Below, in pieces: positions 2,110 to 64,000 of a stretch of 64,000 nucleotides of DNA. The position numbers and the translations under genes are program-made. Position 1 is the stretch's first letter, and every line of letters begins with the position of its first letter. The notes under the pieces were generated by a model. That model saw only the letters and a list, made by a program, of their open reading frames with translations, did not search any database and was not told where the DNA came from. The DNA comes from Basidiobolus meristosporus CBS 931.73 (taxonomy: Eukaryota; Basidiobolomycota; Basidiobolomycetes; Basidiobolales; Basidiobolaceae), in NCBI GenBank assembly GCA_002104905.1, contig MCFE01000104.1, positions 107,031 to 171,030 on the forward strand, read 5' to 3'.

Positions 2110-2276
2110 ACTACAGTCATTAAGCTATATATATCCATCATAAGAAATTTGCCAACACACTGCCATCCCGAATTAAAGGACTCCAGTTGTGCAACAGCAA
2201 AAATCAATTGCGCTAGGTATTCATCTTAATATTCTCAATAATTGTATTTGTTTCTTATTGTTGAGGTAAAGAGGAA

Positions 2277-2441
2277 GGCAGGAGGCGGCGCATGGCGCTC
2301 ACCTCCCACAAACAAAAATTTAACAGTCGAGACACCCCGAAGGATGTTCGCGTCAAAGACCCTGAGGCGCTGTGCAATGCTCAAGTTCTAAGACGAACAG
2401 CCTGCCTTCTTGATCACAAGCTGTCCCTGCCAGGTAAGTAT
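2277..2441 (-). ncRNA. U1 snRNA, variant A, copy 1
   Basis: The minus strand starts at 2441 with AUACUUACCUGGCAGGG, the canonical U1 5' end that pairs with 5' splice sites. It is followed by a stem-loop I with GUGAUCAAGAAGG in the loop (U1-70K site), a loop with CAUUGCAC (U1A-type site), an Sm-like site AAAUUUUUGU, and a GC-rich 3' hairpin over 2281-2307. The length of 165 nt matches vertebrate U1 (164 nt). Identical to the copy at 9538-9702. It differs from the adjacent variant B at four positions (2357, 2389, 2401, 2420), which form two compensatory base-pair changes. The 3' end is placed by the hairpin and is uncertain by a few bases. Confidence 0.93.
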
Positions 2442-2851
2442 GCTTTGCCCCCTCCGCTCCTCTCTCCTTTATCCTCATCCTGCTCACTCCTCAACCTGTG
2501 GGATCCCCTTGATTTCATGCCATCCCTAGAGATTTCCTTGCTCACAAATATCTACTCCGCCATTTCTGGCCAGATGATTATCCATCATTTCTACTGAAGT
2601 AATGCTACCCCATTCACACCGAGTATTTTCACCAATGCCACCCATATCACTCACCACCCCACCAGTCCATCTCTTTATCTCCTCTTCCTTTCGCTAGGAG
2701 TTCCCACTAGTGATACTCGTAAACCTCGCAGTTCTATTTCCATGATCACCATACTAATACTTTGTAGTGGGGAACTGGATGAGCACTGTGCTTTTTTGTA
2801 CTTTCAAGTTGATGTTTGCGTAGAGATGGTGGTTTTTGAAATAAAGAGGAA
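2442..2851. other. Spacer between U1 genes A and B
   Basis: C/T-rich on the plus strand. It holds the promoter of U1-A (right of 2441) and the 3' flank of U1-B. Nearly identical to 9703-10113. No protein gene is supported. Confidence 0.6.
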
Positions 2852-3016
2852 GGCAGGAGGCGGCGCATGGCGCTCACCTCCCACAAACAAAAATTTAACA
2901 GTCGAGACACCCCGAAGGATGTTCGCGTCAAGGACCCTGAGGCGCTGTGCAATGCTCAAGTTCCAAGACGAACAGTCTGCCTTCTTGATCACAAACTGTC
3001 CCTGCCAGGTAAGTAT
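2852..3016 (-). ncRNA. U1 snRNA, variant B, copy 1
   Basis: Same architecture and length (165 nt) as variant A, with the 5' end at 3016: AUACUUACCUGGCAGGG, 70K-type loop I, CAUUGCAC loop, Sm site and 3' hairpin. Identical to the copy at 10114-10278. Compared with variant A, stem I carries U-A in place of C-G and stem II carries G-C in place of A-U. Upstream (plus-strand 3040-3055) the minus strand reads CTATTTTATG, a possible TATA-like promoter element about 30 bp before the start. All this indicates a functional gene. Confidence 0.93.
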
Positions 3017-3156
3017 GCCGAACCAGGTTGCCAGAGGTGGCATAAAATAGAGCCGGCAGCCTCGAGTCAATTGTGGGATTCAGGTCGATATATGAATAGC
3101 ATTGGACAAATATGGCATTCAATCTCAAGTAAGGCCTTCACTTGAAGTCACAAATC

Positions 3157-4976
3157 TCGTTACCATAACTGCATTTAATTCACAAGCATGGACGATTCGA
3201 CAAACCTAACTAATAATCACTTTTCTGTCTATCGTAGTTGGCACCTGAGGCATTTCTTAATAATAGGGTCAAGGTCATGAAGATCTGTGGTGGAGATTTC
3301 AATAGCATAACCTACGATATGCTTGACGCCTGACACGTGCACCTGAGTAAATAAAGGTGAGCATATTGACCTCAAATGATAAGGAGGATGTGATTTACAC
3401 TCAATTTAGCTTTGCGCATAACCTAAACTGGGGGTTCACACTAGGACACAAAAACGAACATCACTTGCTGAGTAAGCTCGTTGTTGGAGATAACCATGCT
3501 ACAAAATGGTGATCAAATAAGCGCCAACCCAAAGGCGTTGCTTGAACTCACCCTACCAAAGGTACCCAAAAGCAGCTTGATCAGGCTCTAGCTGTTTAAC
3601 AATTTCTGCAAGACCTCCTTTCCCTAAGCTGACGTTAATAATCGTGCTCAAAGACGCTCGTTATATATGTAGCACCTGTGGAGTTCACTTCAAGTATATC
3701 CCCTCTGTCTTCAGAATACGTCAAGAGTAGCCTAGATGGGTAAGGCCAACCTCGGAAAAATCACGCTGATGTCAAAATGTTCCAGGGTTACCAGTTTGTA
3801 TCAGAATTGTCTTTAACAAGAGCTATATTAGAGTATATCACAGGTGAGATGGGTAGACACAACTGCCTTGGCTAATACACGCACCAGACTGCTTTTGCTC
3901 GAGATTAAATTGGATAAGATCAAAGCACTCGACATATAAAAGCAGTGATTGAACTGAAGCACTCATTCGTAAGACATGCCAACAAAACCCACAAATCCAT
4001 TGGATTGCACTCGAATTTTGAATTGACGATTGACCTAATTATGGCGAAGTGTGGCTAAGCTCATGATGTTCTAGCGGAATATACCCGTATTGAACCTGGT
4101 CAGAGGGGATCACATTATTACAGTTAGGTGGGGATAGACGAAGATAGGCAGAAGGAAAGATTAAACTAAACATGATTGACACCATAATCTAGCAAATCGA
4201 GGAATGGTTTGGTAAATGCCTCAAGAGTAAACAAAGGGATGGGCGTTTTATTCGGTATATAATGACGATTTTGATCACATCCATTAATAACGATAAAAAA
4301 ATCAACTTCCCCATTTAGTGAAAACAAACAGTATTACAATAACAATAAAGACACTTTAGAAAATGACTTTATCTGTAAAGACGAGCTTACTCGACGAAAA
4401 TACAAAAAGGTCAACCCAGGCTCCAGGAGCTTCCTCAGAAAACCCACTTAATAAGGTATTCATACTATTCTTCACAAGGACGACCTTTTCCTCTAAACTC
4501 ATCTTGGTAATAGTCTAATAATCAAGCTTGCTCGAAGGTGTGTTTTGAACATGGTTGCTTCTGGCATTTGCAATGCGTTTCCAGTTGACTTATGACTGAC
4601 CTTACTCTATATGTAGCAGCCGAATATACCTCTAGACAAAAGACCGAACAAATTGGCCTCGCCTTCGAAATTCGTATATGTATGCTCGGTTTTTTGAAGG
4701 GCAATTGGTGATACACAGATTATGCTAAACGATACCTATTCGATCATCTAGAGATCACACATTAGCCCTTTAAGACGTCAACATCCATATCTACCTTCTT
4801 CGAGACTATCTCCACTTACGGCTAAGATGTACAAAAAGATGGAAGCCTGCCGGATTGAAAAGGTGGATATATACATGCGTAACACAGCGCCGTTGAAATG
4901 ATACCAACCATCTTCACTTCAGGAAAACTTCAACCCGCAAACAATAACCAAAAATAAGAGTTCCAAAAAACCGCAG
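3157..4976. other. Gene-free interval
   Basis: 1.8 kb, AT-rich, with no reading frame that resembles a known protein and no recognisable RNA gene. A 64-codon minus-strand frame near 4522-4716 shows no domain or splice context. Confidence 0.5.
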
Positions 4977-9537: not shown

Positions 9538-9702
9538 GGCAGGAGGCGGCGCATGGCGCTCACCTCCCACAAACAAAAATTTAACAGTCGAGACACCCCG
9601 AAGGATGTTCGCGTCAAAGACCCTGAGGCGCTGTGCAATGCTCAAGTTCTAAGACGAACAGCCTGCCTTCTTGATCACAAGCTGTCCCTGCCAGGTAAGT
9701 AT
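9538..9702 (-). ncRNA. U1 snRNA, variant A, copy 2
   Basis: 165 nt, 5' end at 9702, identical in sequence to the copy at 2277-2441, with all U1 landmarks (5' splice-site pairing region, loop I, loop II, Sm site, 3' hairpin). Confidence 0.93.
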
Positions 9703-10113
9703 GCTTTGCCCCCCTCCGCTCCCCTCTCCTTTATCCTCATCCTGCTCACTCCTCAACCTGTGGGATCCCCTTGATTTCATGCCATCCCTAGAGATTTCCT
9801 TGCTCACAAATATCTACTCCGCCATTTCTGGCCAGATGATTATCCATCATTTCTACTGAAGTAATGCTACCCCATTCACACCGAGTATTTTCACCAATGC
9901 CACCCATATCACTCACCACCCCACCAGTCCATCTCTTTATCTCCTCTTCCTTTCGCTAGGAGTTCCCACTAGTGATACTCGTAAACCTCGCAGTTCTATT
10001 TCCATGATCACCATATTAACTTTTTGTAGTGGGGAACTGGATGAGCACTGTGCTTTTTTGTACTTTCAAGTTGATGTTTGCGTAGAGATGGTGGTTTTTG
10101 AAATAAAGAGGAA
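9703..10113. other. Spacer between U1 genes, copy 2
   Basis: Near-identical to 2442-2851, with a few substitutions and a one-base indel in the C-tract. Promoter of U1-A and 3' flank of U1-B. Confidence 0.6.
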
Positions 10114-10278
10114 GGCAGGAGGCGGCGCATGGCGCTCACCTCCCACAAACAAAAATTTAACAGTCGAGACACCCCGAAGGATGTTCGCGTCAAGGACCCT
10201 GAGGCGCTGTGCAATGCTCAAGTTCCAAGACGAACAGTCTGCCTTCTTGATCACAAACTGTCCCTGCCAGGTAAGTAT
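10114..10278 (-). ncRNA. U1 snRNA, variant B, copy 2
   Basis: 165 nt, 5' end at 10278, identical to 2852-3016, with the same TATA-like element upstream. Confidence 0.93.
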
Positions 10279-47153: not shown

Positions 47154-47681
47154 TTAGCTATAATCGCCGGGTATAACAGTCTGACATCCTTCAGTGCTAA
47201 GCCCCATATTGCAATCGTCTTTCTCATTGCAGCAGCGAATGCAGTAATCTCCAACATCAGGTTCGATGAGACTGACGAAGTACGTGTAGCCGTCGCATCC
47301 GGACTCTGGTGGGGCTCCTCTATTATCAAATTGACCGCCACCATCACTGCGGGACATGTTATATGCTTCAGGATTCATCTTACCAGTCACTTGAACAAAG
47401 GTACTTGTTTGGTTGAAATGCGCCGTTTGAACGAATCCCTCTGGGAGTGCAAGTGCTTTGGGTGCTACTGGGTTCGGTTTCGTGCAAAATACCACCGCAT
47501 CATGTTCATGCTCACCAATGATCATTGCTGGCTCAGGAGGTAAGAAAAGGCAGAAATCGGTAGCATTGTTCACGACAGTGAGGTGGTTGATGCTAGGATC
47601 GCCGACTGTGATGGGTTTACCAACAACCGAGGATGCAGATAGTAGTACGCTAACTAACGAGGCCAAGCTTTTGATGTACAT
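47154..47681 (-). CDS. Secreted eight-cysteine protein, paralog 1
   Basis: 175 residues, single exon, opposite in orientation to the two other paralogs. MYIKSLASLVSVLLSASSVV is a signal peptide with likely cleavage before KPITVGD. Mature protein: DFCLFLPPEP, IGEHEHDAVVFCTKP, FVQVTGKMNPEAYNM, GGGQFDNRGAPPESGCDGYT, YFVSLIEPDVGDYCIRCCNE, KDDCNMGLSTEGCQTVIPGD. Eight cysteines suggest four disulfides. A TATAAATA motif at 47734-47741 (minus strand) lies ~55 bp before the ATG. The family occurs in many fungi as secreted proteins of unknown role. Subtelomeric clustering fits a variable, surface-exposed or secreted family. Confidence 0.88.
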   Translation of the reverse strand: MYIKSLASLVSVLLSASSVVGKPITVGDPSINHLTVVNNATDFCLFLPPEPAMIIGEHEHDAVVFCTKPNPVAPKALALPEGFVQTAHFNQTSTFVQVTGKMNPEAYNMSRSDGGGQFDNRGAPPESGCDGYTYFVSLIEPDVGDYCIRCCNEKDDCNMGLSTEGCQTVIPGDYS

Positions 47682-47733
47682 CTCGAGTGGAGTTACTTGA
47701 ATGTGGAATGCCTTTACCTTGGACGTCGGTTGG

Positions 47734-47741
47734 TATTTATA
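47734..47741 (-). promoter_or_regulatory. TATA box of secreted paralog 1
   Basis: TATAAATA on the minus strand, 53-60 bp upstream of the ATG at 47681. Confidence 0.6.
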
Positions 47742-48528
47742 AAAAGTCTCCACCAATGAAAGCGTGGAGCCTTTGAGAACATGTCTAAATTGTCTAGTCC
47801 GAATACAGTAGACCACATGCATAGTCCGAATACATCTTTTGTGACGCGTACGATCAGGAGATAACTGTGAAAACGAATTTCGGCTCAGACTAGCTGACCA
47901 ACACTCCGATTGCTTAAGTGGCAGCTGTAGTCCCGATTCAGCTGTGAATGCATATATAGTAATGTCTCGATATACACATCAGACAACCAGGTCCAAAATG
48001 ACTCCAACACCGCTTTCTTGGCAAAAGTGCGAGTTTCCTAAAAGGGTTTCCATTAAATTCCATAGTTTCTGCGTTTCGATATACTGTGGGAATATCTCCT
48101 GCTCATGATGTAGGATAAAGAGGTTGCCAGAATTGGTTGCCAGGATTGGATAGTGCATTCAAACTTGGAGTCATGTCTTGGTTTCCGGAGAAACTTCGTC
48201 ATCTGCCGAATTTGCCGTAATTGATTCAAACAGTCAATACGTTCATATGCACAGTCGATCGCAGCTGGATTTTGAATGAAAATCATGTCGAACCTTGGAT
48301 TACGCCATGAGTGATACATTGACAGATTCGGGTTGACGCCAAAGTGTCACACATATCGAGCTACTGAGGGTGCTCATAGATACACTCCCATCAGTGGTCA
48401 CGTAACGATGATGACTGTTTAGGTGATATGGGCGCTTTAGCGTGGTTGATTATGTACCAAACCATTATCCATAATTGGTAAAAACGAGAGATGTCTTTAT
48501 CTGCTGTTGTTCAATAGGATGTGTGCCT

Positions 48529-48726
48529 TAGCAATATGAGGCGGTTCTATCAATACACAGCCCGTTAATAATACTTACAAATACCAAAATGTCGTAGGAA
48601 TGGAACCAAAATATCATTCACACCAGCTAGCAATATGAGGCAGTTCTATCAATACACAGCCCGTTAATAATACTTACAAATACCAAAATGTCGTAGGAAT
48701 GGAACCAAAGTGTCATTCCCACCAGC
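48529..48726. repeat. 99-bp tandem duplication
   Basis: Two adjacent copies, 48529-48627 and 48628-48726, with about four differences (for example GAGGCGGTTC versus GAGGCAGTTC). Confidence 0.9.
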
Positions 48727-49025
48727 TGTTTTGGAAATAAAAGCATGCTGTGGCTTCATAATCGAACAGTAATTGCCACCCATTGGTGGCTAAAAATGGA
48801 TTAGCTCAGCCCTGGAATAGATGAGCATCATAATTGCCTAACAACTGCCGTCGATAATGCCAACATGTTATTATATGTGCATTAGAGATCAAATCATAAA
48901 CATGACATCAGTGTTCAACTAATCCATTAAAGGTTGCTAGAAGTTATTAATAGCATTTTCACAAACTAAGCTTAACACTGTAGAACAGACACTCGTCGTT
49001 ACATCCATCGATAAGCTCTGCAGAG

Positions 49026-49033
49026 TATAAAAA
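49026..49033 (+). promoter_or_regulatory. TATA box of secreted paralog 2
   Basis: TATAAAAA, 53-60 bp upstream of the ATG at 49086. Confidence 0.65.
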
Positions 49034-49085
49034 CCACCGTCCGCGGCCTCCATGAGTATCGATTCAAGCACTCACAACCACCAAA

Positions 49086-49613
49086 ATGTTCAGTAAAAGA
49101 CTCGCCTCCGTTGTTGTCGCTCTGTCCGCCATCTGTTCTGTTACCAGCAAGCCAATTTCTGTCGGGGATCCAAGTATCAACCATCTTACAGTTGTGAACA
49201 GCGCAACGGATTTCTGTCTTTTTCTGCCCCCAAAGCCCGGTATGGTCATTGGTGAGCATGAACACGACGCTGTTGTGTTCTGCCTAAAGCCCAATGCCAA
49301 GGCTCCCAAGGCCCAAATGTTCCCCAAGGGATTTATCAAGAGCGCTCACGCCAAGAAGACCAGTTCCTACGTTCAAGTTACTGGACAAATGAATCCTAGT
49401 GCTTATAAGCTCTCACGAAAGGATGGGGGAGGGCAGTTTGATAACCGTGGAGCACCTCCCAAGTCAGGCTGCAATGGCTACACTTATTTCGTAAGCTTGA
49501 TCGAGCCAGACAATGGCAACTACTGTATCCGTTGCTGCAACGAGAAAAATGACTGTAATATGGGCCTTAGCACCGAAGGCTGCGAGACAGTCATTCCTGG
49601 TGATTATAGCTAG
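49086..49613 (+). CDS. Secreted eight-cysteine protein, paralog 2
   Basis: 175 residues, single exon. Signal peptide MFSKRLASVVVALSAICSVT, cleaved before KPISVGD. The same eight-cysteine pattern as paralog 1 (FCLFLPP, VVFCLKP, KSGCNGYTYFVSLIEPD, YCIRCCNEKNDCNMG, EGCETVIPGDYS). Compared with its sisters it is much more Lys-rich in the middle (PNAKAPKAQMFPKGFIKSAH), so the mature protein is more basic. Strong TATA upstream. Function unknown. Confidence 0.9.
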   Translation: MFSKRLASVVVALSAICSVTSKPISVGDPSINHLTVVNSATDFCLFLPPKPGMVIGEHEHDAVVFCLKPNAKAPKAQMFPKGFIKSAHAKKTSSYVQVTGQMNPSAYKLSRKDGGGQFDNRGAPPKSGCNGYTYFVSLIEPDNGNYCIRCCNEKNDCNMGLSTEGCETVIPGDYS

Positions 49614-49958
49614 ATGGCTATTACCAGATGTAGGATTTTGAAATGATTTTGTTCGTATTTTTGTAAGAAGCAATAAAACCTCCCACCCCTGTAAAACAAT
49701 ACAACCTCACTCCATCAATAATATTCCAGAGCCATTCTTACCTAATATTAATAATCGGTCCACCCAATGATCCATGCCCATTAGCGCCTGGATATCCCGT
49801 CAATTCATTTAAAATTAATGTACTCGTTGAGAACTGATTCGCTTGGCTCTGATCGGGCGGAACTTGGTAAAATAAGGTTTCCATACCATGGTTTCCCATA
49901 CCACTGGTTCTCCACTATAAAACCTCGGTCAAGGATGCTGCTCAACACGAAATTCATC
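49614..49958. other. Intergenic between paralogs 2 and 3
   Basis: 345 bp with the paralog 2 3' UTR (AATAAA at about 49670) and the paralog 3 promoter. Confidence 0.5.
49916..49922 (+). promoter_or_regulatory. TATA box of secreted paralog 3
   Basis: TATAAAA, 37-43 bp before the ATG at 49959. This spacing argues against using the earlier ATG at 49935, which lies only 13 bp after the box. Confidence 0.6.
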
Positions 49959-50477
49959 ATGCGTTGGCAATCAGTCACCACCATCCTCGCTAATCTATAT
50001 TTAGTGGTTGGGAAACCAATTTCAGTCGGAGATTATAAGGTTAATCGCCTTACTGCCATAGACAACGCTGACAGTTTCTGCCTATTCCTTCCACCAGAGC
50101 CTGGCCTAACAATAGGCGAGCATGAAGATGACGCAGTAGTCTTTTGCACCAAATCGAATGCCGCTGCACCAAAGGCCAACCTTCTTCCCCAGGGATTCAT
50201 TCGGAGTGCTCATTTTAGTCAAACCAATTCGTACGTGCAAGTGACGGGGAAAATGAACCCCAGTGCGTATCAGCTATCCACTGGTGATGGTGGAGGTCAG
50301 TTTGATAACAGAGGTGCTCCTCCAAACTCTGGGTGCAACAACTATACCTACTTTGTCAGTTTAATCGAGCCAGACATAGGTACATATTGCATTCGCTGCT
50401 GTAACGAGAAAGATGACTGCAATATGGGACTTAGTACAGCGGGATGTGCTGCAGTGATTCCCGGAGATTATTCCTGA
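49959..50477 (+). CDS. Secreted eight-cysteine protein, paralog 3
   Basis: 172 residues from the ATG at 49959 (MRWQSVTTILANLYLVVGKP), a short signal peptide ending before KPISVGD; an upstream in-frame ATG at 49935 would sit too close to the TATA box. Same fold markers: SFCLFLPPEPGLTIGEHEDD, AVVFCTKSN, GGGQFDNRGAPPNSGCNNYT, YCIRCCNEKDDCNMGLSTAG. It is closer to paralog 1 than to paralog 2 in the acidic central part. The pair 2 and 3 is in direct tandem. Confidence 0.88.
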   Translation: MRWQSVTTILANLYLVVGKPISVGDYKVNRLTAIDNADSFCLFLPPEPGLTIGEHEDDAVVFCTKSNAAAPKANLLPQGFIRSAHFSQTNSYVQVTGKMNPSAYQLSTGDGGGQFDNRGAPPNSGCNNYTYFVSLIEPDIGTYCIRCCNEKDDCNMGLSTAGCAAVIPGDYS

Positions 50478-52800: not shown

Positions 52801-55800
52801 TTAAAGAGGTTCTTCTCCTGAAGAGTCCTGTCTATCGGACTTGTAATACCAGTATTTGGTTGGTGGTGTCATTGGGTTTTTTAGCTGTGCTTCCTTTAGT
52901 CGGTCTCTATGCACTAGGTCCTCCTTTACTTTACCTGACATGTCTGCGAGTTGAAATGTATTGAAGGGCATTTCTCTTGTGATAATAAAGGGTCCAACCC
53001 AATGTGGTTCTAGTTTTAGCCTACTTTCATTTCGGACTAATACAAGTTTTCCCAAAGTTAAGGGTTTTGTTACCACTGTTTTGTTGTACTGTTCTTTCAT
53101 CTTCTCTGCTTGTCGTTTTAAATTCTTGATGGCATCATGTCTTGCATGTCCTAATTCTTCCAGTTCCCTTGTTCTGAATTCTGCCAAGTCTTTTTGGTTC
53201 TTTAAGTCCCAGATGTATGGTGGTAAGGTATCACCTGGGATTCTTGGATGTGTACCATACACTAGGTAGAAGGGGGACTTTTGTGTTGCTGAATGGACTC
53301 TAATACGACAGGCAAAGAGTGCTTGATGTACAAATTCATCCCACTTATGTTTGGCTCCTTTGACATAAGTAGTCAGCATCTTCCCAAAGAGTCCATTGAA
53401 CCTCTCTGTGACCCCATTTGTTCTAGGGTGGTATGCTGATGTCTTCAAATGTCTAACCCCCATTATCTGAAGGTATTCTTTCAAGGTTTGTTCCAAAAAG
53501 TTTGCTCCTCTGTCAGACAGAATTTCACCTGGGCATCCAAACTGCATAAAGATTTCCAGGTAAAGGAATTTTGCAACATTTTTTGCAGTAGCTGCTGGCA
53601 TGGCTTTTGCTATACACCACTTAGTGGTATGGTCAATTGCAGTTATGATCCACTTGTTCCCTCTTGAAGTTTCAGGCAATATTCCAATGAAGTCAATTCC
53701 CCATCTGTAGAATGCTGGAACTGGAGTCAGTGGTTCTAATGGGGCATGTTCCTTGTTGTATGGTCTAGCCAGCTGGCACTCAGGGCAGGTCTTGAGGGTC
53801 TCAGCTATAAATTGTTTGAGTTTAGGCCACCAGGCTCTCCTTTTAGTTATTTCATAAGTTCCTTGGATGCCCAGATGTCCAAAGGCTTTATGATTCTTGA
53901 TTATCATGTCACCTCTGTATACAAATGGAATATATGGTACAGGCCCTATTTCTTCCATGTGTCTGTAAAGTACCTCGTCTTCACCATATGAGAAATTCTC
54001 TGCTTCTTTCTTAATCTTGACCCTTACTTCCTGTGATAAATCTTCTGGCATTGTCTGACTTGCCAAGTACTCTGGCATGTATTCTGGCCAGTCCAACTCA
54101 TGATCTACCATTGATATATGTTGCCTTGAGAGTGCATCAGCAACTGTATTCTTTGGCCCAGGGAGGTAGTGGATTTTAAAATCAAATTGTTGTAGTTCTT
54201 TATCTGAGATTATGTGACCAAGGTATTCAACTGATCTGGTGAGGAATTCACACTTAGGAAGTTGTGCATATAGCTTGTGCTTTTTTAGTATAGCCAGTAC
54301 TGTCTTCAAGTGCTTCATGTGGTCATCCATGCTGGTACTATAGATCAGAATGTCATCTAAGTAGACCAGGACAAATTTCTCTAAATATGGTTCCAGGATG
54401 CTATTCATGAGTGTCTGAAATGTTGCTGGGGCATTAGTCAGGCCAAAGCTCATCACAACAAACTCATAATGACCATATCTTGTGTTGAATGCTGTCTTAG
54501 AGGTGTCTTCAGGCTTAATTCTGATTTGGTGATATCCAGATGCCAGGTCTATTTTAGAGAATATCTTTGCCTTCCCCAGTTGGTCAAAGAGGGCATCAAT
54601 TCTTGGTAATGGGTAGGAATTTCTGACAGTGATTGCATTTAGGGCCCTGTAGTCCACACAGAACCGTAGCTTCCCATCCTTCTTTGGAGCAAAGAGTACT
54701 GGAGCTCCCCATGGTGATTTACTGGGTTTTATCCAGCCTTTAGCCAGGTAGTCCTTCAATGTTTCCTTCAAAGTCTCCATTTCCTTTGGGGAGAACTTAT
54801 ATGGGGCTCTGTTTCTTGGTTTATCATCTGTTACTTCTATGGCATGGTCAATCTCTCTGCTTGGGGGTAGTGCAGGGATTTCCTTGGGAAAAACCTCTTG
54901 AAACTCTGCTAACAAGGTCTTGAGCCTGTCATTTGTCACTTCTGTGGTCTCTTGGATTTTGGCAAAGGCTATCATGTGCAACAGTTTGGGATTCTGTCTG
55001 ATAGAGTGGGCAAACTGTTTCTTTGATATGGTGTGTTCTGGTGCATTGCCTTTGTCCAGGGTTGGTTTGGGTGACAGATGATATTTTGCATCATCCTTGT
55101 TGATTACAACTTCCTGAGTCTGCCAGTTTATGTCAGGATTGTGCTTTCTTAGCCAAGTTTGTCCCACATTGATTTCAAAGTTGGCTTGGGGTATGATAAT
55201 TGGGGAAATGGTGTCTTGGAAGTCCCTGATTTGTAAAGTCAAGGGTTCAGTCCTGCTGTTCACTATAATTGATTCCTTGGTGGCACAGAGGATGTGAATT
55301 GGGGGGCAAGGGATTGTTTGTAGCTTCATCTGATCAGCTACATCTTTTGAAATGTAGACATCAGTTGCTCCACTGTCAATGAGTACAGAGACACATTGGT
55401 TGTTGTTGAGAATCCCTGGGAGTTTCAGCATCTTTGGGGTAGTATATAAGCTCTGAGTCCTCTGATACTCCTTAACAAGGCTGATTGTGTGCTCCTCCTC
55501 CTTAGTGGAGAGTTGGAATACTCTTTGTAATGGCCTCTTTGGGCATTCATTGACTTTATGACCCTGTTCCTTGCAGTAAAAGCATAGTCCAAGCTTGAAG
55601 CATTCCTCTTTAGAAGGTCTTGGTGTGCTCTGCATAACATCTAGGTCCATAGGCTCCAGTGTGTGGGGGTAGTGTGCACCTTGTTCAGTGATTGGTTGAC
55701 TACCAATAGGTATGTGGTTATTGGCTTTGAGGCCTGTAGTAGTTCTTGAGTGACCAATTCTGTGGTTGACAGCCCTTCTGAAGTGTATGGCATCATATCT

Positions 55801-56613
55801 TTCTGCCAGTTCCATAGCCTCTACTAGGGTTTTGGGGTCTTTGTATTCAATTTCCCATCTAGTGTTGGATTTCAGGCCTCTTAGGTATTGCTCAAGTAGT
55901 TCAGTATCAGGCATGTTTTGAATTTCCATACTAAGCAAGTTAAACTGCTCATTGTACTCTTGAACAGACTTGGCTTGAAAGAGTTTGGACAGTTTTTCTC
56001 TTGCCATTCTATCAGCATTGATAGGTGTAAACCTCTTTCTCAATGCTTTAACAAAGTCAGCCCAGGAGGCTATGGGTGGAAAGATGCCCCTATTCATTCC
56101 TTGAATGTGAAGTTTCCACCACATGGTTGCTTCCTTTCTGAAAAGTGAACAGGCATAATGTACTTTGACTTCTTCAGAGTCATCTGAGAAGTATAGGTAC
56201 TGCTCTACTTCAAATATCCAAGTCTCTAGAGTGGCAGTGTGTCTTTTGCCTTCAAAGATGTTGGGTTTCTGAAGTTTCAGATTTGTTGCTCTATATTGTT
56301 TTGTGAAGTCCAGAGAGCCTTGCCCATCTTCTCCAAGATTCAAGGAATTGGGAGGCACCGCAGGTCTTACAGATGAGGCTTCACCCTCTCTCTGTATACC
56401 TTGACCAGTAAACCATGATCTCTGGGTGTTCACAAAATGTAAAGAGTCCAAGTCTGTCTGCCTACCCATTCTTGGGTCCAGACTAGGGAGGGCCGCAGGC
56501 TCAGTTGTGTGGGACTGTCCTTGACCGGCTAACTCAGCAACTTGTTGTTCAAGACTCTCAATATAGGCCAACATTTCTTCTGAAGAGCTAAATTTTGGCT
56601 TTTCTTCACTCAT
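52801..56613 (-). CDS. Gag-Pol polyprotein lacking RNase H
   Basis: 1270 codons in one frame. Gag with a retrotransposon gag domain (residues ~120-270) and a zinc knuckle [14 protein letters not shown] (~341-354). Protease with [13 protein letters not shown] (~409). RT with [20 protein letters not shown] and the YLDD catalytic box at ~749. At ~803 the conserved [10 protein letters not shown] jumps straight to [16 protein letters not shown], the very end of a normal RNase H; roughly 200 residues are missing, in frame. Integrase follows: HKAFGH...CPEC zinc site (~908-945), then D of WGIDFIG (~972), D of SDRGANF (~1036) and E of NGVTERFNG (~1071). No chromodomain at the end. As it lacks RNase H it is predicted unable to finish reverse transcription alone. 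Confidence 0.95.
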
Positions 56614-57332: not shown

Positions 57333-57404
57333 GCCTGCTTAGCGCAGTGGTAGCGCGTCAGTCTCGTAAACTGAAGGTCGCCAGTTCAATCCTGGCAGTA
57401 GGCA
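57333..57404 (+). tRNA. tRNA-Thr (anticodon CGU)
   Basis: 72-nt cloverleaf: acceptor GCCTGCT/AGTAGGC (one G-U pair), D arm GCGCAGTGGTAGCGC, anticodon stem-loop TCAGT-CTCGTAA-ACTGA with anticodon CGT, T arm with GTTCAAT loop, discriminator A. No intron. The A and B boxes are intact. Reads ACG codons. Confidence 0.96.
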
Positions 57405-57494: not shown

Positions 57495-57522
57495 TGGTAA
57501 TTGGGGCCTTCTCGTATGTCAA

Positions 57523-57548
57523 GTCTTTCGGGACCTCTGACACTTGAA

Positions 57549-57579
<31 letters not shown>

Positions 57580-57641
57580 GGCCCCTGCACAAGGATGACA
57601 CGTAAATCTTGAGTGGACGCCTCTTCGGAGGTCATTTTTTT
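57523..57641 (+). ncRNA. U6 spliceosomal snRNA
   Basis: Contains the invariant core AATTGGAACGATACAGAGAA followed by GATTAGCATGGCCCCTGCAC and AAGGATGACACG: the ACAGAG box, the AGC triad region and the internal stem-loop. A 5' hairpin GTCTTTCGGGAC precedes it, and a T8 run (57634 on) ends transcription. The 3' part is ~15-20 nt longer than human U6 and carries an extra stable hairpin, CCTCTTCGGAGG, just before the terminator. The exact 5' end is estimated from the hairpin and the TATA spacing. Confidence 0.95.
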
Positions 57642-58078: not shown

Positions 58079-58094
58079 TTAGGGTACTTAGGGG
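58079..58094. repeat. Degenerate telomeric tract at the 3' end of LINE copy C
   Basis: TTAGGGTACTTAGGGG: two telomere-like words directly next to the LINE 3' end. Confidence 0.7.
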
Positions 58095-59253
58095 AGTGAA
58101 AGTCACCAAGGTAGGTGAAATCTTTATTTGATTTCAAACAAGTCTAACTACAAATAAAGAAGCCAGCCGGGAATAGAAGATTCTCAAAGTAAACACTAAG
58201 TTGAATACAAATAAATCTAAGTTAAAGTTAAGGCAGTATCTCAGAGTACACTGGAGTTCAGGTTCATGGGGGAGTGAAGTAGATAAGCTTGAGAGATATA
58301 ATAATCTTTTAAGAAGTGGGTAACAGCAGATGAAGGGGAGTTTTTGATAAGCAAAGTAAATCTTGGGAGCAGAGATTCCTCTAATGAGAAGGTCTTGTAT
58401 GTTGTAAAAATTCGTATTTCCACCTAAATATTCACCTAACTTAGTCACTTAGATCATCACCTTCAAATCCTAGAGAATACTGACCAAATTCCTTGTCGGG
58501 ATTTACTTGAAATATTTTCACCAAAATACCAGGTGCCCAGAACATGAAAATTCTCAAAGTTGTCCAAACAGCCCCAAACTTTGCACACATGTTCTTGGGA
58601 CCTTCCTTAACCCATTCTACGTGTTTGTAATGCCAAGACCAGGTAAAAGTATAAATACTACTTTTACATTCAATAAATCATTAAGTGAAAACCACATAAT
58701 CTACTTGTTCTCCAAATCACTTCCAATATCTCCAAGACTTTTACAACATTGTAAACTGGAGAGTCAGGAAATTATTTAAAGGTATGGTCAGTAGGTTCCC
58801 AGAAAAACTGGTCAGAGACATTTTGAGAGAATTGTCTAGCAATACTTTTGTCAAGTCCTACCTCCAGAGTGTGATGGTTGATAAATCTCATGTTAACTAT
58901 CTTAGATAAACTGTAACCTTGTTGCTTGAGACACATTCTATGCTCAAATATTGGAATAAGCTCCACATTGGCAGAGTAGCAGACAGCCCAGTCAGTAGCA
59001 GGAGGCAAATCATAGGTGGCAGGAAATTTTCTTTTAGTCTTAGGAGGAGCAGCAGGACGTCTTGAGGAAGCAGGAACAGGCTTTTTGACAGCTTCAGAGT
59101 TGGAAGAGTGAGCAGGAGCATATGATTCTTGGGAAGTCTTGTTGACAGAAAGAGTTGGCACAGGGACAATAGATTCTTGCAGATCAGAGAAGGCAGAAAA
59201 CAGCTTTTGAACTTGTTTCTTGAGTAAAGCATTTTCAGCTTCAGTAAGTGCAA
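58095..59253 (-). mobile_element. LINE copy C: 5'-truncated, ORF1-only, decayed
   Basis: Same orientation as the outer copies. Encodes an ORF1 fragment (from LTEAENALLKKQVQKL in a heptad-rich segment, through TYDLPPATDWAVCYSANVEL to QFFWEPTDHTF), then after an inserted solo LTR (58400-58748) the rest of ORF1 in shifted frames, and a 3' UTR with the shared hairpin at 58103-58118. No RT coding follows ORF1: the 3' UTR comes directly. The 5' end is cut inside ORF1 and is joined to a telomeric tract. Confidence 0.85.
58400..58748. mobile_element. Solo LTR nested in LINE copy C
   Basis: 349 bp beginning TGTTGTAAAA and ending TTTTACAACA (perfect 10-bp inverted ends), flanked by TTGTA direct repeats at 58395-58399 and 58749-58753. 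The sister LINE copy B is uninterrupted here. Contains TATAAATA and AATAAA on the plus strand. Different family from the 310-bp LTRs. Confidence 0.85.
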
Positions 59254-59254
59254 G

Positions 59255-59275
59255 CCTTAGGGTAAGGGTTAGGGG
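59255..59275. repeat. Telomeric tract between LINE copies C and B
   Basis: About three imperfect TTAGGG words with one inserted-base variation. Confidence 0.85.
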
Positions 59276-59826
59276 AGGGAAAGTCACCAAGGTAGGTGAA
59301 ATCTTTATTTGATTGCAGACAAGTCTGACTACAAATAAAGAAGCCAGCTGGGAATAGAAGATTCCCAAAGTAAAAACTAAGTTGAATATGAATAAATCTA
59401 AGCTAAAGTTAAGGCAGTATCCCAGAGTACACTGGAGTTCAGGTTCATGGGGGAGTGAAGTAGATAAGCTTGAGAGATATAATAATCTTTGAGGAAGTGG
59501 GTAACAGCAGGTGAAGGGGAGTTTTTGATAAGTGAAGTGAATCTTGAGAGCAGAGATTCCTCTAATGAGAAGGTCTTATAAACTGGAGAATCAGGAAACT
59601 CTTTAAAGGCATGGTCAGTAGGTTCCCAGTAAAACTGGTCAGAGACATTTTGAGAGAACTCTTTAGCAATACTTTTGTCAAGTACCACCTCCAGAGTGTG
59701 ATTGTTGATAAATCTCATGTTAACAATCTTGGATAAATTGTAACCTTGCTGCTTGAGATACATCCTATGCTCAGATATAGGAATAAACTCCACATTGGCA
59801 AAGTAGCAGACAGCTCAGTCAGTAGC
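59276..59826 (-). mobile_element. LINE copy B: 5'-truncated, ORF1-only
   Basis: 550 bp, minus strand. Carries the C-terminal half of ORF1 in one open frame (FIPISEHRMYLKQQGYNLSK, IVNMRFINNHTLEVVLDKSI, SQAYLLHSPMNLNSSVLWDT) ending at TAG (59398-59400), then a 3' UTR with the hairpin at 59284-59299. No RT. Homologous to the C-terminal half of ORF1 in copy A, but from a different subfamily; the 3' UTR is similar to that of copy A only in its last ~60 bp. Confidence 0.87.
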
Positions 59827-59827
59827 A

Positions 59828-59839
59828 GGGTTAGGGGGG
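59828..59839. repeat. Telomeric tract between LINE copies B and A
   Basis: AGGGTTAGGGGG, directly abutting the 3' end of copy A. Confidence 0.85.
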
Positions 59840-59893
59840 AGACAGTCACCAACTGGTGAAATCTTTATTTCAGTTGAAACAAAGAAGCCAGCG

Positions 59894-62662
59894 CTACTGT
59901 TGTAGCTTTGATACAAGAGTGTGTAGCTGAGGGGAATTTGTAGGTAAGTTAATAAGAAGTGATGATAGTTCTTCAGTGCTCAAGACACTGTTCAGTGGGA
60001 AGGGGGGTAGCAAGAGAGGTAAGAATGACTTGTGAACAACATTAATGAGGGGAATGTGATAAGGATTGATATTCATCATAAAGGGAGTGTGCTGCTGCAG
60101 ATATTGCTGCCAAAGGTCTGTCAAGTACTTCAGGTAGGCCAGCTTGGGTTTTTCTGACTGCAGAATATATTGAGCAAACTTCTTGACTTCAGGATCTCCA
60201 AGTATAGTTCTCCAGCAGGAGCCAAGTGTTGTGTGGTGTGTTCTCTTCCAGGCCTTAATCAGTGGGTTGTTGCAGTTGTGAAGTCTGAGGTGTAATCTGG
60301 TTCTAAGGTAGAGAAGTCTGATCTTATAGGGCATAAACCCAAAAGCACCAAGAATAGCATGTCTGTAGGGGCATTCAGGCAAATGAGGCACCAAGGAGGT
60401 AATGCACCATACTGCAAACTTGTCAAGCTTAGTGCAGTCTCTAGAAGTAAGAGAGAGAAGTGGTAAGCCAAATTCCAGGACAGGGAAGACAAACTGCTTG
60501 AGTAGAAGGAGGCAGCTGGAAGCTGAAGTTGTAGGAGGAGTAACAGCCAGTAGCTTGTGGAGTGCCTGTCTTGCCAGGATAATTCTCTGCTTCAGGTGTG
60601 CTCCAGAGTCTAGTCCAGTAGGAAGGAAAGGAAAGCCAAGATATGTAGCAGAAACCTGAGCAGGTAGAGTGGAGTTCTCCAAGCTGATGGGAGAGCCCAA
60701 AGGTACTGTCTTTGCAATGGAAAGCTGGAGATTATTCTTCTGCAGATACTGGTTGATGGTCTGGGAGTCTTGTTGCACATTGGAGGAGGATATTCTGATG
60801 TCATCAGCAAAGAGAGTAACCAGGCAGTCAGCTGAGAGTCTTGGGAAATCATTCAGGAAGATGGCAAACAGTATAGGACCAAGCACAGAGCCTTGAACCA
60901 CTCCATTAGGAACTGAGAACACAGCTGATTGCTCACTTGGGTAGAGAATTCTTGCTTGTGGATCCAGAAACAGAGACCTGACAAGGAGGGTGAGAGAGGT
61001 ACTGGAGAAGCATTGCAACTTGGACCAAAGCAGATTTCTGTCAACTGAATCAAAGGCCTTAGTAATATCAAACAGAACTGAGGGATACTTGCACTGGAGA
61101 GAGTGATCTTGGCTAAGTATGACTGCATATTCCAAGGAGAGGCCAGGAACAAAGCCAAACTGTGCAGGATGAAACTTGAGGGAGTCAGAGTAGAGCTCCT
61201 GAGCAAGCAGAAGCTCAAACACCTTTCTGCAGGTGGGCAGCAGAGATATTGGCCTATAGGAGCTAGGATCCAGGTGCTTTCCTTTACCCTTGTACAGTGG
61301 CAGAACATTTGCAAAGGACCATTCCTCAGGAGTAGAAAGCTGGGCTGAGCATTGCTGAAACAGTGGAAGCAGAAGTGCAGACATGGCCTTGGTACTAGTC
61401 TTCAGAAGCTCATAGGAGATTGTGTCCACACCTGGAGCAGTAGAGTTGGGAAGCCTCTTGAGCACATTATGGATTCTCCCTTGATCAAGTGCAAGTGGGA
61501 TGGGCAGAGTCTTGAAGTCAGGATGAAAGCCAGGAGTTGAGTACTGCTTTGTAGAGAAGAAGATGTTAGCCAGCTGTTCTGTTGAAGGTAACTTCCTGGA
61601 AGAGGGCCTCATTGCCCTGTAGAGTCTTGATACTGTTCTTGTTATAGAGTTGGAAGATTGCAGAGGCAAAGAACTCATAATATGATCCCAGAGCTGAGTA
61701 TGCAGAGTGTGGTGAATTGCCTTGGAGTGGTGTATTGCTGTCAGGAGGAGTTTCTCTGTTTTTGGGTTAGGGAAACTCAGGTAGCTTTGTTGCAGGGCTG
61801 AAACAATGGATTCCCAATTTCTTGAGGTAACAGCAGTAGTCTTGCATGGCAGTGAGAGGGAGGCAGACACCAGAATCAGATGCTTCACAAAGAGCCAGGC
61901 ATAGTTGAGATCATCAGGCAGAGAAAGTAGCAAACTGGCAAGCTTCAAGTAGTTCCCAAAGTCTTTCTTCTGATTCTTGGTAGCTTTGTGGGTGAGCACA
62001 GTAAGTTTTGGCAGCTTCTTCTTCACAACTGGTTGCATAGAAAGCAACCAGGCTGGGTGGTCAGAGGCTCTCAAGGATCCTAGCTCAGCTCCAGAGAATT
62101 GCTTAACTTCGTTCACAAAGTAGAGGGCAGCAGCAGAAGGGCAGATCCAGTCAACACATCTTTTCTCAGATTGAGCACCTAGTGCTAGCAGATGGCTTTC
62201 TCTCAGGAAGTTCAGTAGGAATGTAGATCTTGGCTTCATTCTTGCAGTCAGAGTAGTCTTGTTCTCAGGATGGGGAATGTTGAGATCTCCAAGCAAGATA
62301 ATAGGTGTTGATATAGATTGCTGGTATTGCTGAACTTTCTGGCATATAACTTGCACTTCCTGAAGGGCAAGACTTGGAGGCAGATAGCAGAGCACCAGAC
62401 TGATAGTTGGCAACTGGAGAGCAGCACAGTAAGGGGAGTAAAGAGGAACACAGAGCTGAGGAGTATTGATGGTAGAAGAGATGAAGCAGATAGAGGAGGT
62501 ATTCTTTGTTCTAGGTGTAGAAAAGCAATATAGATTAGTCAAAAGTATAGAGGGTAGCTGGACATCAATCAAACACAGGAGGGAAAATCTTGAAAGAAGT
62601 CTCTCTAGAGTTGGTCTTGATGGCAGTATGCTGTTGCAGTTAAGCAACAGAACTTCAGGTAG
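59894..62662 (-). CDS. LINE ORF2: APE endonuclease and reverse transcriptase
   Basis: 922 codons after the ORF1 TGA. The endonuclease begins within a few residues (VLLLNCNS), with IILLGDLNIPHP (~120-130), CVDWICPS and the catalytic SDH in RASDHPAWLL (~200). The usual glutamate of LCLQET-type motifs aligns to Asp in LCLIDVQLPS, a conservative change. The RT has SSYRPISLLPTCRKVFELLL, QFGFVPGLSLEYAV, VLFDITKAFDSVDR, GVVQGSVLGPILFAIFLNDF and the catalytic FADD (~617). No RNase H or C-terminal zinc knuckle is seen. There is no ATG before the endonuclease: the first Met is after the GDLN motif. Synthesis by readthrough from ORF1 is therefore the likeliest route. Confidence 0.93.
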   Translation of the reverse strand, partial: LPEVLLLNCNSILPSRPTLERLLSRFSLLCLIDVQLPSILLTNLYCFSTPRTKNTSSICFISSTINTPQLCVPLYSPYCAALQLPTISLVLCYLPPSLALQEVQVICQKVQQYQQSISTPIILLGDLNIPHPENKTTLTARMKPRSTFLLNFLRESHLLALGAQSEKRCVDWICPSAAALYFVNEVKQFSGAELGSLRASDHPAWLLSMQPVVKKKLPKLTVLTHKATKNQKKDFGNYLKLASLLLSLPDDLNYAWLFVKHLILVSASLSLPCKTTAVTSRNWESIVSALQQSYLSFPNPKTEKLLLTAIHHSKAIHHTLHTQLWDHIMSSLPLQSSNSITRTVSRLYRAMRPSSRKLPSTEQLANIFFSTKQYSTPGFHPDFKTLPIPLALDQGRIHNVLKRLPNSTAPGVDTISYELLKTSTKAMSALLLPLFQQCSAQLSTPEEWSFANVLPLYKGKGKHLDPSSYRPISLLPTCRKVFELLLAQELYSDSLKFHPAQFGFVPGLSLEYAVILSQDHSLQCKYPSVLFDITKAFDSVDRNLLWSKLQCFSSTSLTLLVRSLFLDPQARILYPSEQSAVFSVPNGVVQGSVLGPILFAIFLNDFPRLSADCLVTLFADDIRISSSNVQQDSQTINQYLQKNNLQLSIAKTVPLGSPISLENSTLPAQVSATYLGFPFLPTGLDSGAHLKQRIILARQALHKLLAVTPPTTSASSCLLLLKQFVFPVLEFGLPLLSLTSRDCTKLDKFAVWCITSLVPHLPECPYRHAILGAFGFMPYKIRLLYLRTRLHLRLHNCNNPLIKAWKRTHHTTLGSCWRTILGDPEVKKFAQYILQSEKPKLAYLKYLTDLWQQYLQQHTPFMMNINPYHIPLINVVHKSFLPLLLPPFPLNSVLSTEELSSLLINLPTNSPQLHTLVSKLQQ

Positions 62663-63766
62663 TCAGGCAGTGGTTGTAGCTTCTTCAGAGGCAGCATTGA
62701 CAATGTGACCTGCAGAGTCCCAGAGCTCTTCAAATGGTGCATCACTTAAGTCAGCAAGGAGGGAAATGGCATGGTTCTTGAGGAAGTATGCCACATCATA
62801 GGAGGGGGCTTGTCTCTTGATGGCAGCAAAGAAAGACAGAATGGCAACATGGGCTGGAGGCTTGTTGAACAGTAGAGAGTCAGAGGATTCAGATTCTTCA
62901 GGCACTATCTTGAAGTCAGTTTTCAGCCAGTTAAGGTTCTTCTCCACAAAGGCAACAAATGGGTCAGCAATGTTTTGGTCTAGGATAACCTCCAGAATCT
63001 TCCCTTTTCTCCAGGCCAGGTTGACAATTCTTGAGAGCTGAATATTGCATGCCTTGAGTGCTTTCATGATGTTGGAAATGGGAGTCCAGGGAACTTGCTT
63101 CAAGTACACCACAGTCCAGGTAGAAGCTGGTGGTAGGTTTGCTGGGGGCTTGTAAGTCCTTCTGTGTGGCAATGGAGCTGCAGTAGTCAGATTGGAGTCC
63201 ACATTCTCAGTAGAGGGTTTTCTTGATGTGTCTTGCTGAATGGTACTGGAGCTGGATGTGCTGATAATTCTTGCTAGAACCTTGCCTGCATAAGTCTGAG
63301 GTATAGCTGAGGTAACTGTAGAGGTGGTGGCAGCTGGTGCAGGTGGAGAGGCAGAAACTGAAGCTGGAACTGAGGTCACCTGGGAGAAGGCAGTAGAAGC
63401 AGGTTTTCTGGGAGGAACAGAGTTCACTATCCAGTTCTTCTGTAAAACACTGGAGTAGCTTTTCTGTGGAACAGGATCTTGCTCTTGAACAGGAACAGAA
63501 GCAGGAGGCTGGGGCTGAGCAGTAGTGGTAAGGCAGTGGCACTCCAAGGAAGCTTTTTGCAAGGCATCTCTGGCAGTTTTCAGGGCAGTATTGGCTTCAT
63601 TCTTGAGCTTCTTGCATTGGGTATCCAGTCTCTTGTTTTCAAGAGCCAGGGCAGTATTGGCAGCCTCTAAATCAGCAATTCTCTTCTCAATTGCAAGGAA
63701 TCTCTGAAGAAATGCATCAGTAGAAGTGCTGGCATCTGGGAGAGCAGTGGCAGGAATAGAGTCCAT
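62663..63766 (-). CDS. LINE ORF1: nucleic-acid-binding structural protein
   Basis: 367 residues from the first ATG (63766; MDSIPATALPDASTSTDAF), stop TGA at 62665-62663. Order: coiled coil (~15-75; RIADLEAANTALALENKRLD), Pro/Ser/Thr-rich linker (~85-190), then a folded region (~200-300; PPASTWTVVYLKQVPWTPIS, IVNLAWRKGKILEVILDQNI) resembling an RRM-like ORF1 domain, and a C-terminal helical part. Coiled coil plus RNA-binding region is the common LINE ORF1 plan. No CCHC knuckle. The stop codon is followed by CTA, a leaky context. Confidence 0.85.
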   Translation of the reverse strand: MDSIPATALPDASTSTDAFLQRFLAIEKRIADLEAANTALALENKRLDTQCKKLKNEANTALKTARDALQKASLECHCLTTTAQPQPPASVPVQEQDPVPQKSYSSVLQKNWIVNSVPPRKPASTAFSQVTSVPASVSASPPAPAATTSTVTSAIPQTYAGKVLARIISTSSSSTIQQDTSRKPSTENVDSNLTTAAPLPHRRTYKPPANLPPASTWTVVYLKQVPWTPISNIMKALKACNIQLSRIVNLAWRKGKILEVILDQNIADPFVAFVEKNLNWLKTDFKIVPEESESSDSLLFNKPPAHVAILSFFAAIKRQAPSYDVAYFLKNHAISLLADLSDAPFEELWDSAGHIVNAASEEATTTA

Positions 63767-63808
63767 TGACAGTGGGCTTCTTGGAGGCAAGGAAAGTGGA
63801 CTGGCAGA

Positions 63809-64000
63809 TTAGGGTTAGGGTTAGGGTTAGGGTTAGGGTTAGGGTTAGGGTTAGGGTTAGGGTTAGGGTTAGGGTTAGGGTTAGGGTTAGGGTTAGGGTT
63901 AGGGTTAGGGTTAGGGTTAGGGTTAGGGTTAGGGTTAGGGTTAGGGTTAGGGTTAGGGTTAGGGTTAGGGTTAGGGTTAGGGTTAGGGTTAGGGTTAGGT
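63809..64000. repeat. Telomere, (TTAGGG)n
   Basis: 32 units in G-strand orientation toward the right end; 31 perfect, and the last reads TTAGGT at the very end of the sequence. Marks the physical chromosome end. Confidence 0.99.

Follow-up and report, generated by a model that had tools for sequence, protein, structure and literature searches.

How does a fungal chromosome come to end in a row of retroelements that all point the same way and are joined to one another by scraps of telomere? The question is raised by a 64,000-nt stretch of the genome of Basidiobolus meristosporus CBS 931.73, called the window here, which finishes at its right in a chromosome tip. A terminal telomere, (TTAGGG)x31.8 at 100% match, occupies positions 63809-63999 of the forward strand, and inward of it follow three elements in a single orientation with their 3′ ends inwards. 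A first-pass annotation of this DNA had described three copies of a long interspersed nuclear element (LINE), and it had proposed repeated attachment to chromosome ends. In the present analysis of the whole assembly (89,006,234 bases in 1,311 contigs) the common orientation holds; however, only the outermost element is a LINE, here called A, whereas the inner two are copies of a smaller element, B, which lacks ORF2. Very probably, this chromosome end carries a telomere-targeted system of non-long terminal repeat (non-LTR) retrotransposons with an endonuclease of the apurinic/apyrimidinic (APE) type.

Anatomy of the Array

Host DNA meets the first element at the tract TTAGGGTACTTAGGGG (58079-58094, forward strand), which, like the two other junction tracts, lies where it had been annotated. 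The first element is a B copy on the reverse strand (58092-59258), an ORF1-only and non-autonomous element that is 5′-truncated (element positions 80-892 of 892) and 92-94% identical by blastn to the full B of locus L060; its 198-aa frame and the ORF of a full-length B share 84% identity over 164 aa. It is split by a solo LTR of 349 bp (TG...CA; 58400-58748), on either side of which TTGTA is duplicated (58395-58399 and 58749-58753). Matches to this LTR at 79-97% occur in other fetched array loci, so LTR elements land in the telomeric arrays, and a solo LTR inside the innermost copy is expected if inner copies are older. The second tract, CCTTAGGGTAAGGGTTAGGGG (59255-59275, forward strand), leads into a B copy cut shorter at its 5′ end (59273-59829, reverse strand; element 336-892 of 892; 97.8% identical to B of L060), and the third, GGGTTAGGGGGG (59828-59839, forward strand), leads into LINE A (59836-63810, reverse strand).

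As first described, the outermost copy runs directly into the terminal array, its final two nucleotides (TT) overlapping the telomere start at 63809. It is not full-length: element positions 614-4588 of 4588 are present, and the break lies inside ORF1, at a point where 16 other compared copies continue and TTAGGG begins here. All features of this copy lie on the reverse strand. The frame and the comparison with other copies identify 62663-63808 as ORF1, open and without its 5′ part (502 aa in the full copy on contig C1279). A UGA stop (62663-62665), followed in one frame by CUA C, parts it from the ORF2 frame (59894-62662), which, counted from the codon that follows UGA, has 922 aa and its first AUG at codon 142. 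Within ORF2 lie a putative APE-type endonuclease core (62054-62401) with GDLN, DWIC, and SDH motifs read by eye (Exo_endo_phos_2, E 3e-4, below the Pfam cut-off) and a reverse transcriptase (RT) domain with FADD (60629-61267; RVT_1, E 2.2e-25). At the 3′ end a hairpin of the form TCACC-loop-GGTGA (59846-59859) precedes a C-rich tail, an arrangement that is common to all four families described below.

Genome-Wide Location and Orientation

The 3′ ends served as search boxes, with up to two mismatches tolerated. The box of the A/C type gave 1,195 + 110 = 1,305 matches and that of the B type 227 + 31 = 258, and both controls gave 0; 100 places were listed of each. For ORF2, 50 places were scored out of 1,383 candidates. 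As a limit of 20 kb from a contig end is empty for contigs below 20 kb and says little on shorter ones, the main counts are restricted to contigs of more than 40 kb. On these, 169 of 170 listed places lie at most 20 kb from the contig end that is faced by their 5′ side (37/37 in the A/C box list, 90/90 in the B box list, and 42/43 in the ORF2 list), where 19% would be expected at random. Over all contigs the counts within 20 kb of the faced end are 100/100, 100/100, and 49/50, respectively. Interior copies as the rule are thus rejected by the distance test, and the same elements recur genome-wide at other ends in the same orientation, with nearly all scored ORF2 places being subtelomeric, as repeated targeting had led one to expect. 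On contigs C370, C591, and C424 both ends have elements; these run in opposite directions, with the 3′ end inwards each time.

The pattern GGTTAGGG-N(0-12)-GGGGGGAGACAGTCACC has 94 matches in the genome, which represent 80 distinct 3′ ends (counted by hand, some matching twice), and its reversed control has 0, which is beyond what chance would give. Among contigs C1-C36, the 7 with (TTAGGG)12 are all within the 13 that bear a listed 3′ box (p = 2e-4). Twelve further contig right ends showed no telomere (0/12); they had been chosen for their absence from the A/C box list, so that the lack of elements there is uninformative. Matches to (TTAGGG)12 number 4,521 on the forward and 50 on the reverse strand, versus 0 and 5 for the reversed pattern, which means that telomeres are nearly always written at contig right ends; this bias is probably a convention of contig writing in the assembly. 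Dividing the matches by the 6-29 found per telomere in six contigs listed whole suggests, very roughly, 200-300 telomeric ends.

Junctions and Chromosome Tips

Filters differed between the sets of junctions, which comprise 128 for the TAGGG count, 120 for the parsing of tracts (2 unparsed), and 129 for contexts (127 parsed); locus C646 among the junctions read was chosen through the pattern that requires TTAGGG, and C543 is also in the list of that pattern. Of 128 3′ junctions, 125 have TAGGG at a distance of at most 30 nt (117 with TTAGGG), and the remaining 3 have AGGG. In control windows from the same loci, outside arrays of at least four repeats, TAGGG occurs in 4.4%. The 118 parsed internal tracts have a median length of 13 nt, a mean of 14.7, and a maximum of 49; 75 are perfect TTAGGG and 43 deviate. 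Terminal arrays (n = 26) measure 136-243 nt, with a median of about 200 and one of 49, and contig ends may shorten them. The G-run at the junction depends on the family, being mostly 6-7 in A, 4 in B, and 5-6 in C, which implies that the RNA end itself contributes some of the C-run.

All 129 contexts of 180 nt around the junctions are distinct. Among the upstream 25-mers of the 127 that were parsed, 107 are single and the rest are the 5′ end of C (14 times) or the 5′ repeat unit of A (6 times). At the tips (n = 26), the neighbor of the terminal array is A in 12 cases, C in 8, and B in 2. Among these, 5 of the 8 C copies have element position 1 as their start, and each of the 12 A copies has a start of its own. 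Distinct junctions and start points indicate that the ends grew by separate additions, with a new telomere after each. Of 14 truncated tips (19 of the 26 tips being scored), 4 share at least 3 nt with the telomere, versus 6% expected by chance, and six are negative; microhomology at truncated tips is therefore only suggestive.

Four Families with One Kind of 3′ End

Four families can be read from the fetched chromosome ends, and all have the same kind of 3′ end, i.e., in RNA sense, TCACC-loop-GGTGA and a C-rich tail that passes into CCCTAA, with a loop that varies by family. Of A, one full copy of 4,588 nt was assembled on contig C1279; it consists of 5′ repeat units, an ORF1 of 502 aa with a Cys-rich motif, the UGA, and an ORF2 of 922 aa. 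At locus L057, the tip of contig C370, the 5′ end of A bears tandem repeats (about 100 bp, judged by eye) that recall the upstream variable number tandem repeats (VNTRs) of FoTeR elements.

Element B (892 nt) has a single ORF of 242 aa, which is related to the C-terminal part of A ORF1 (34% identity over 167 aa, E 8e-21). The genome contains at least 154 matches to it, as found in 150 scored candidates out of 552, and 66 of the listed rows are full-length and stop-free by hand count. Element C (about 522 nt) is non-coding, its longest open frame on the sense strand having 70 codons. It shares the LINE-like 3′ end with the other families and, judged by eye against the consensus of these promoter boxes, it has an exact B-box GGTTCAAATCC and a near A-box. 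ARAGORN called no tRNA in it and Rfam gave no match up to E 1, and the status of C as a proven tRNA-derived short interspersed nuclear element (SINE) is thus unconfirmed. Element D is a second LINE lineage, known from an ORF2 fragment beside a D-type 3′ end in locus L035. A further ORF1-like frame (SPDTPPTANWAVCYF...), which differs from that of B and lies in the same array, was noted in the reverse frame of locus L022.

ORF2: Domains, Expression, Selection, and Relatives

The first-pass annotation had assigned to ORF2 an APE-type endonuclease with an SDH motif. The motif is there, the series N, GDLN, D, and SDH being readable by eye in the ORF2 alignment, and so is RVT_1; the endonuclease match itself is weak. 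Up to E 1, a Pfam scan of ORF2 gave RVT_1 (2e-25), weak Exo_endo_phos matches, and a chance-level match to Mga, and no domain of the restriction-enzyme-like (REL) type. ORF2 matched LINE-1 ORF2 chains (E 3e-13, in the RT part), and a PDB search with the endonuclease part alone found nothing. With an endonuclease (weak match) and RT in ORF2, no LTR, and 5′ truncation, A fits an APE-type non-LTR retrotransposon.

ORF1 and ORF2 of A are in the same frame, and in all 29 copies examined nothing but UGA-CUA-C parts them; the UGA-CUA site is the same in 32 matched copies from largely overlapping loci. No AUG precedes codon 142 of ORF2 in any of the 29 copies, 27 of which have intact frames. A start at codon 142 would lose part of the endonuclease, and it is therefore likely that ORF2 is expressed by readthrough of the UGA-CUA stop codon, or else from a non-AUG start. 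UGA-CUA is a leaky context that favors readthrough, and the marks looked for are seen: the in-frame stop is kept, an upstream AUG is absent, and the downstream frame is selected. Gammaretroviruses are described as using in-frame readthrough and the gag of HeT-A as using a frameshift (PMC5009743). A literature search by title turned up no LINE with stop-codon readthrough. The relative P0001 begins near the UGA point with M, so that readthrough may not extend to the whole clade.

ORF2 is under purifying selection. The ratio of nonsynonymous to synonymous substitutions (dN/dS) is 0.16 for the endonuclease (EN) and 0.17 for the RT (351 non-independent pairs of 27 copies), and selection on the EN region suggests that nicking or cutting matters. 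Gap-free matches give 0.33 for A ORF1 (136 pairs) and 0.35 for the B ORF (15 pairs from six stop-free copies); a value of about 0.9 for A ORF1 was rejected, as it came from an ungapped, fixed-length comparison of copies with indels. About 8,000 candidates were scored in the protein search, in which ORF2 has five close relatives at 48-80% identity, other matches reaching at most 38% over 15-81% of the query; a second search of about 8,000 scored candidates gave no nearer relatives. A tree of the RT was made from 38 rows (the five relatives, A, D, and 31 other chosen matches). A and D form one clade with the five relatives on a long stem (100/100), within which D groups with P0005 (96/75). The host possesses telomerase: the RNA-binding domain of TERT gives two matches above cut-off on contig C880, one of them across a stop, as an intron would give.

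Comparison with Known Telomeric Elements

The closest parallels in fungi are telomeric non-LTR elements, MoTeR of Magnaporthe oryzae and FoTeR of Fusarium oxysporum. MoTeRs lie head-to-tail with their 5′ ends nearest the chromosome end and TTAGGG between them, and MoTeR2 shares its ends with the RT-coding element (PMC7367193); FoTeR has telomeric repeats at both ends and the VNTRs upstream (PMC12857005). The arrays of B. meristosporus are likewise head-to-tail, 5′ end to the tip, with TTAGGG between copies. However, MoTeR1 and FoTeR cluster with CRE-like elements of the REL type (PMC12857005), whereas here the endonuclease is APE-like and ORF2 has no REL domain. MoTeR2 has an unrelated sequence of 786 bp in place of the RT region (PMC7367193); here ORF1 and ORF2 are separate, the partner B keeps an ORF1-like gene, and C is SINE-like in look. 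The tracts of MoTeR can be as short as half a repeat or exceed 20 repeats (PMC7367193), in contrast to a maximum of 49 nt among the 118 tracts here. The absence of a REL domain and the separate, fully supported RT clade among the rows compared fit the suggestion made at first that this is an independent case in a fungus.

Elements attached with the 3′ end inwards are also found in Drosophila (HeT-A, TART, and TAHRE), and B resembles HeT-A as an ORF1-only partner. HeT-A is described as an abundant partner that codes only for an ORF1/Gag-like protein and must borrow an RT (PMC4700185, PMC5009743), in a host described as having no telomerase (PMC5009743). In contrast, TERT is present here, the arrays end in TTAGGG, and TTAGGG lies between copies. 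Alongside telomerase, SART and TRAS, which are of the APE type and belong to the R1 clade, reside in telomeric repeats. They are reported as LINEs of Bombyx and other insects (PMC10088271), and SART1 has a poly(A) tail at its junction and needs at least 3 TTAGG repeats (PMC7265360). Here, however, a C-rich tail meets AGGG, 118 of 120 junctions being a telomeric tract that ends in a G-run, and no poly(A) or poly(T) tail was seen by eye at the junctions read. Zepp of Chlorella, GilM and GilT of Giardia, Tx1_ACar of the anole, and Athena Penelope-like elements of rotifers are listed as telomere-associated retroelements (PMC10088271). This likeness is one of description, and their names are absent among the matches of ORF2 in both protein searches, each with approximately 8,000 scored candidates.

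Proposed Mechanism and Alternatives

The anatomy and orientation of the elements, their terminal location, the distinct telomeric junctions, and the shared 3′ ends could arise as follows. Element A would make ORF1p (502 aa) and, probably through UGA-CUA readthrough, an ORF2p with endonuclease and RT. The RNAs of A, B, and C would finish in the same hairpin and C-run/CCCUAA tail, and the RT would take this shared RNA end, B and C possibly being mobilized in trans, with the C-run laid on the ...AGGG-3′ of the telomeric G-strand at a nick or at the natural 3′ overhang. Copying of the RNA towards the chromosome tip would place the 3′ end inwards and the often truncated 5′ end outwards, TTAGGG would be added back to the new tip by telomerase, and a further element would attach after telomere shortening or close to the telomere base. 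From the orientation of the elements it follows that first-strand cDNA continues the G-strand outwards, and the simplest reading of this step is that the C-run of the RNA anneals to ...AGGG-3′. As the internal tracts are far shorter than the terminal array, attachment near the telomere base or to worn ends is suggested, unless the tracts shrank later. The best reading of the partners is that B is a HeT-A-like and C a SINE-like dependant of the LINE, in a system independent of the REL-type MoTeR and FoTeR. A broader interpretation, which we offer tentatively and would put at somewhat below even, is that of a telomere-specialized parasite community, in which LINEs of at least two lineages, the ORF1-only element, and the SINE-like element have converged on one 3′ end and use the G-strand 3′ end as primer; it would attach to near-exhausted telomeres and constitute a second, telomerase-like system of end lengthening beside telomerase.

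Several points count against telomere targeting by an APE-type system. No insertion has been witnessed in progress. The lists of A/C boxes, B boxes, and ORF2 places overlap, and contig sizes are known for 58 contigs, many others being interpolated by rank order (monotonic across the first 56 known, with true sizes substituted for C424 and C757). One of the 50 ORF2 places, on contig C726 (69,561 bases), is interior and faces inwards. There, in an array (C726:59200-61500, i.e., L074, and L073) about 56 kb from the faced end and with copia-like sequence (by eye) 5′ of it, A is joined to C by a telomeric scrap; the place departs from the others in position and orientation only, as it retains CCCTAA at its 3′ end, and fusion, inversion, or misassembly may explain it. 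At 4 of 26 tips the terminal array abuts something other than A, B, or C. The Exo_endo_phos_2 match scores 21.1 bits against a Pfam cut-off of 27.4 (E 3e-4), and an Asp, read by eye, stands in place of the metal-binding catalytic Glu of L1-type enzymes, as it does in both of the homologs, two out of five, that reach the site. For the dN/dS of B, three of nine gap-free ORFs had to be dropped for a stop. Finally, the short internal tracts could stem from later breakage and not from attachment to short ends.

That an ordinary LINE inserts at random and survives only near telomeres, interior copies being selected against, is hardly credible: subtelomeres tolerate transposable elements, but such survival would yield neither a single orientation nor telomeric sequence at 3′ junctions. 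A gag-pol element of the window, of LTR type as judged by eye (52801-56613), is only 1.5 kb away from the array, and the DNA of the window inward of the inner edge of the array contains no TTAGGG dimer and no 3′ box. An origin of the arrays mainly from recombination or break-induced replication between ends, with few original insertions, is improbable. Some arrays have C-type 3′ boxes in runs about 530 bp apart (C96 and C45), and MoTeR arrays of Magnaporthe also enlarge by break-induced events (PMC7367193). As the chief source, however, recombination is rejected on the strength of the junction contexts, none of which recurs; the 20 upstream 25-mers that do recur are all 5′ ends of C (14) or A (6), and truncation points are almost all private, as separate insertions predict. 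Repeated attachment to chromosome ends, as originally proposed, thus agrees with 169 of 170 places, 125 of 128 TAGGG junctions, and 129 of 129 distinct contexts.

Two further alternatives concern the source of the primer. TRAS and SART are thought to insert in the middle of the repeat array, and an APE endonuclease might nick anywhere within the telomere, placing insertions mid-array and not at or near the end. The dN/dS of 0.16 in the EN region, which makes cutting seem important, speaks for such nicking; random cuts in an array of about 200 nt would, however, leave tracts of about 100 nt on average, in contrast to the observed median of 13 and maximum of 49 among 118, and we consider this route rather unlikely. 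Its traces could be masked by later shortening, as MoTeR internal tracts of more than 3 repeats break easily (PMC7367193). The opposite possibility, that the main route is endonuclease-independent, is also doubtful. Here the natural 3′ overhang would prime in a telomerase-like manner, as has been proposed for HeT-A; the 118 parsed junctions ending in a G-run that matches the C-run of the RNA end, the shortness of the tracts, and the Glu-to-Asp change read by eye in the endonuclease favor it, whereas purifying selection on EN as strong as on RT does not.

Significance

Telomere-targeted LINEs bear on the relationship between telomerase and LINEs and on the taming of transposons by their hosts. 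B. meristosporus is an early-diverging fungus and has kept its telomerase; in it, an APE-type lineage appears to have arrived independently at the life style of HeT-A and MoTeR. More than 1,500 3′ boxes in one assembly allow a statistical treatment of the rules of priming, of attachment to short telomeres, and of the parasitism of telomeric elements on one another. If the interpretation is true, we know of no earlier telomere-targeted SINE, and in fungi of no earlier telomeric LINE of the APE type. A literature search, made without Repbase, mostly without subscription journals, and largely by title, gave no report on telomeric elements of Basidiobolus, and one for a telomeric SINE, also mostly without subscription journals, found nothing. 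Papers that mention both Basidiobolus and telomeres deal with other subjects, judged by title; in the passages of one of them, PMC10234402, Basidiobolus is named once, for a fatty-acid synthase.

Other Features of the Window

Just inside the array lie a tRNA-Thr (57333-57404) and a U6 gene (57518-57641). Farther inward, positions 47154-50477 hold three paralogs that code for a small and apparently secreted protein; relatives of it occur in Basidiobolus and in many Mucoromycota. Near the other end of the window there are two pairs of U1 snRNA genes (2279-3016 and 9540-10278), which have near-equal spacing, lie about 7.26 kb apart, and look like a tandem segmental duplication.

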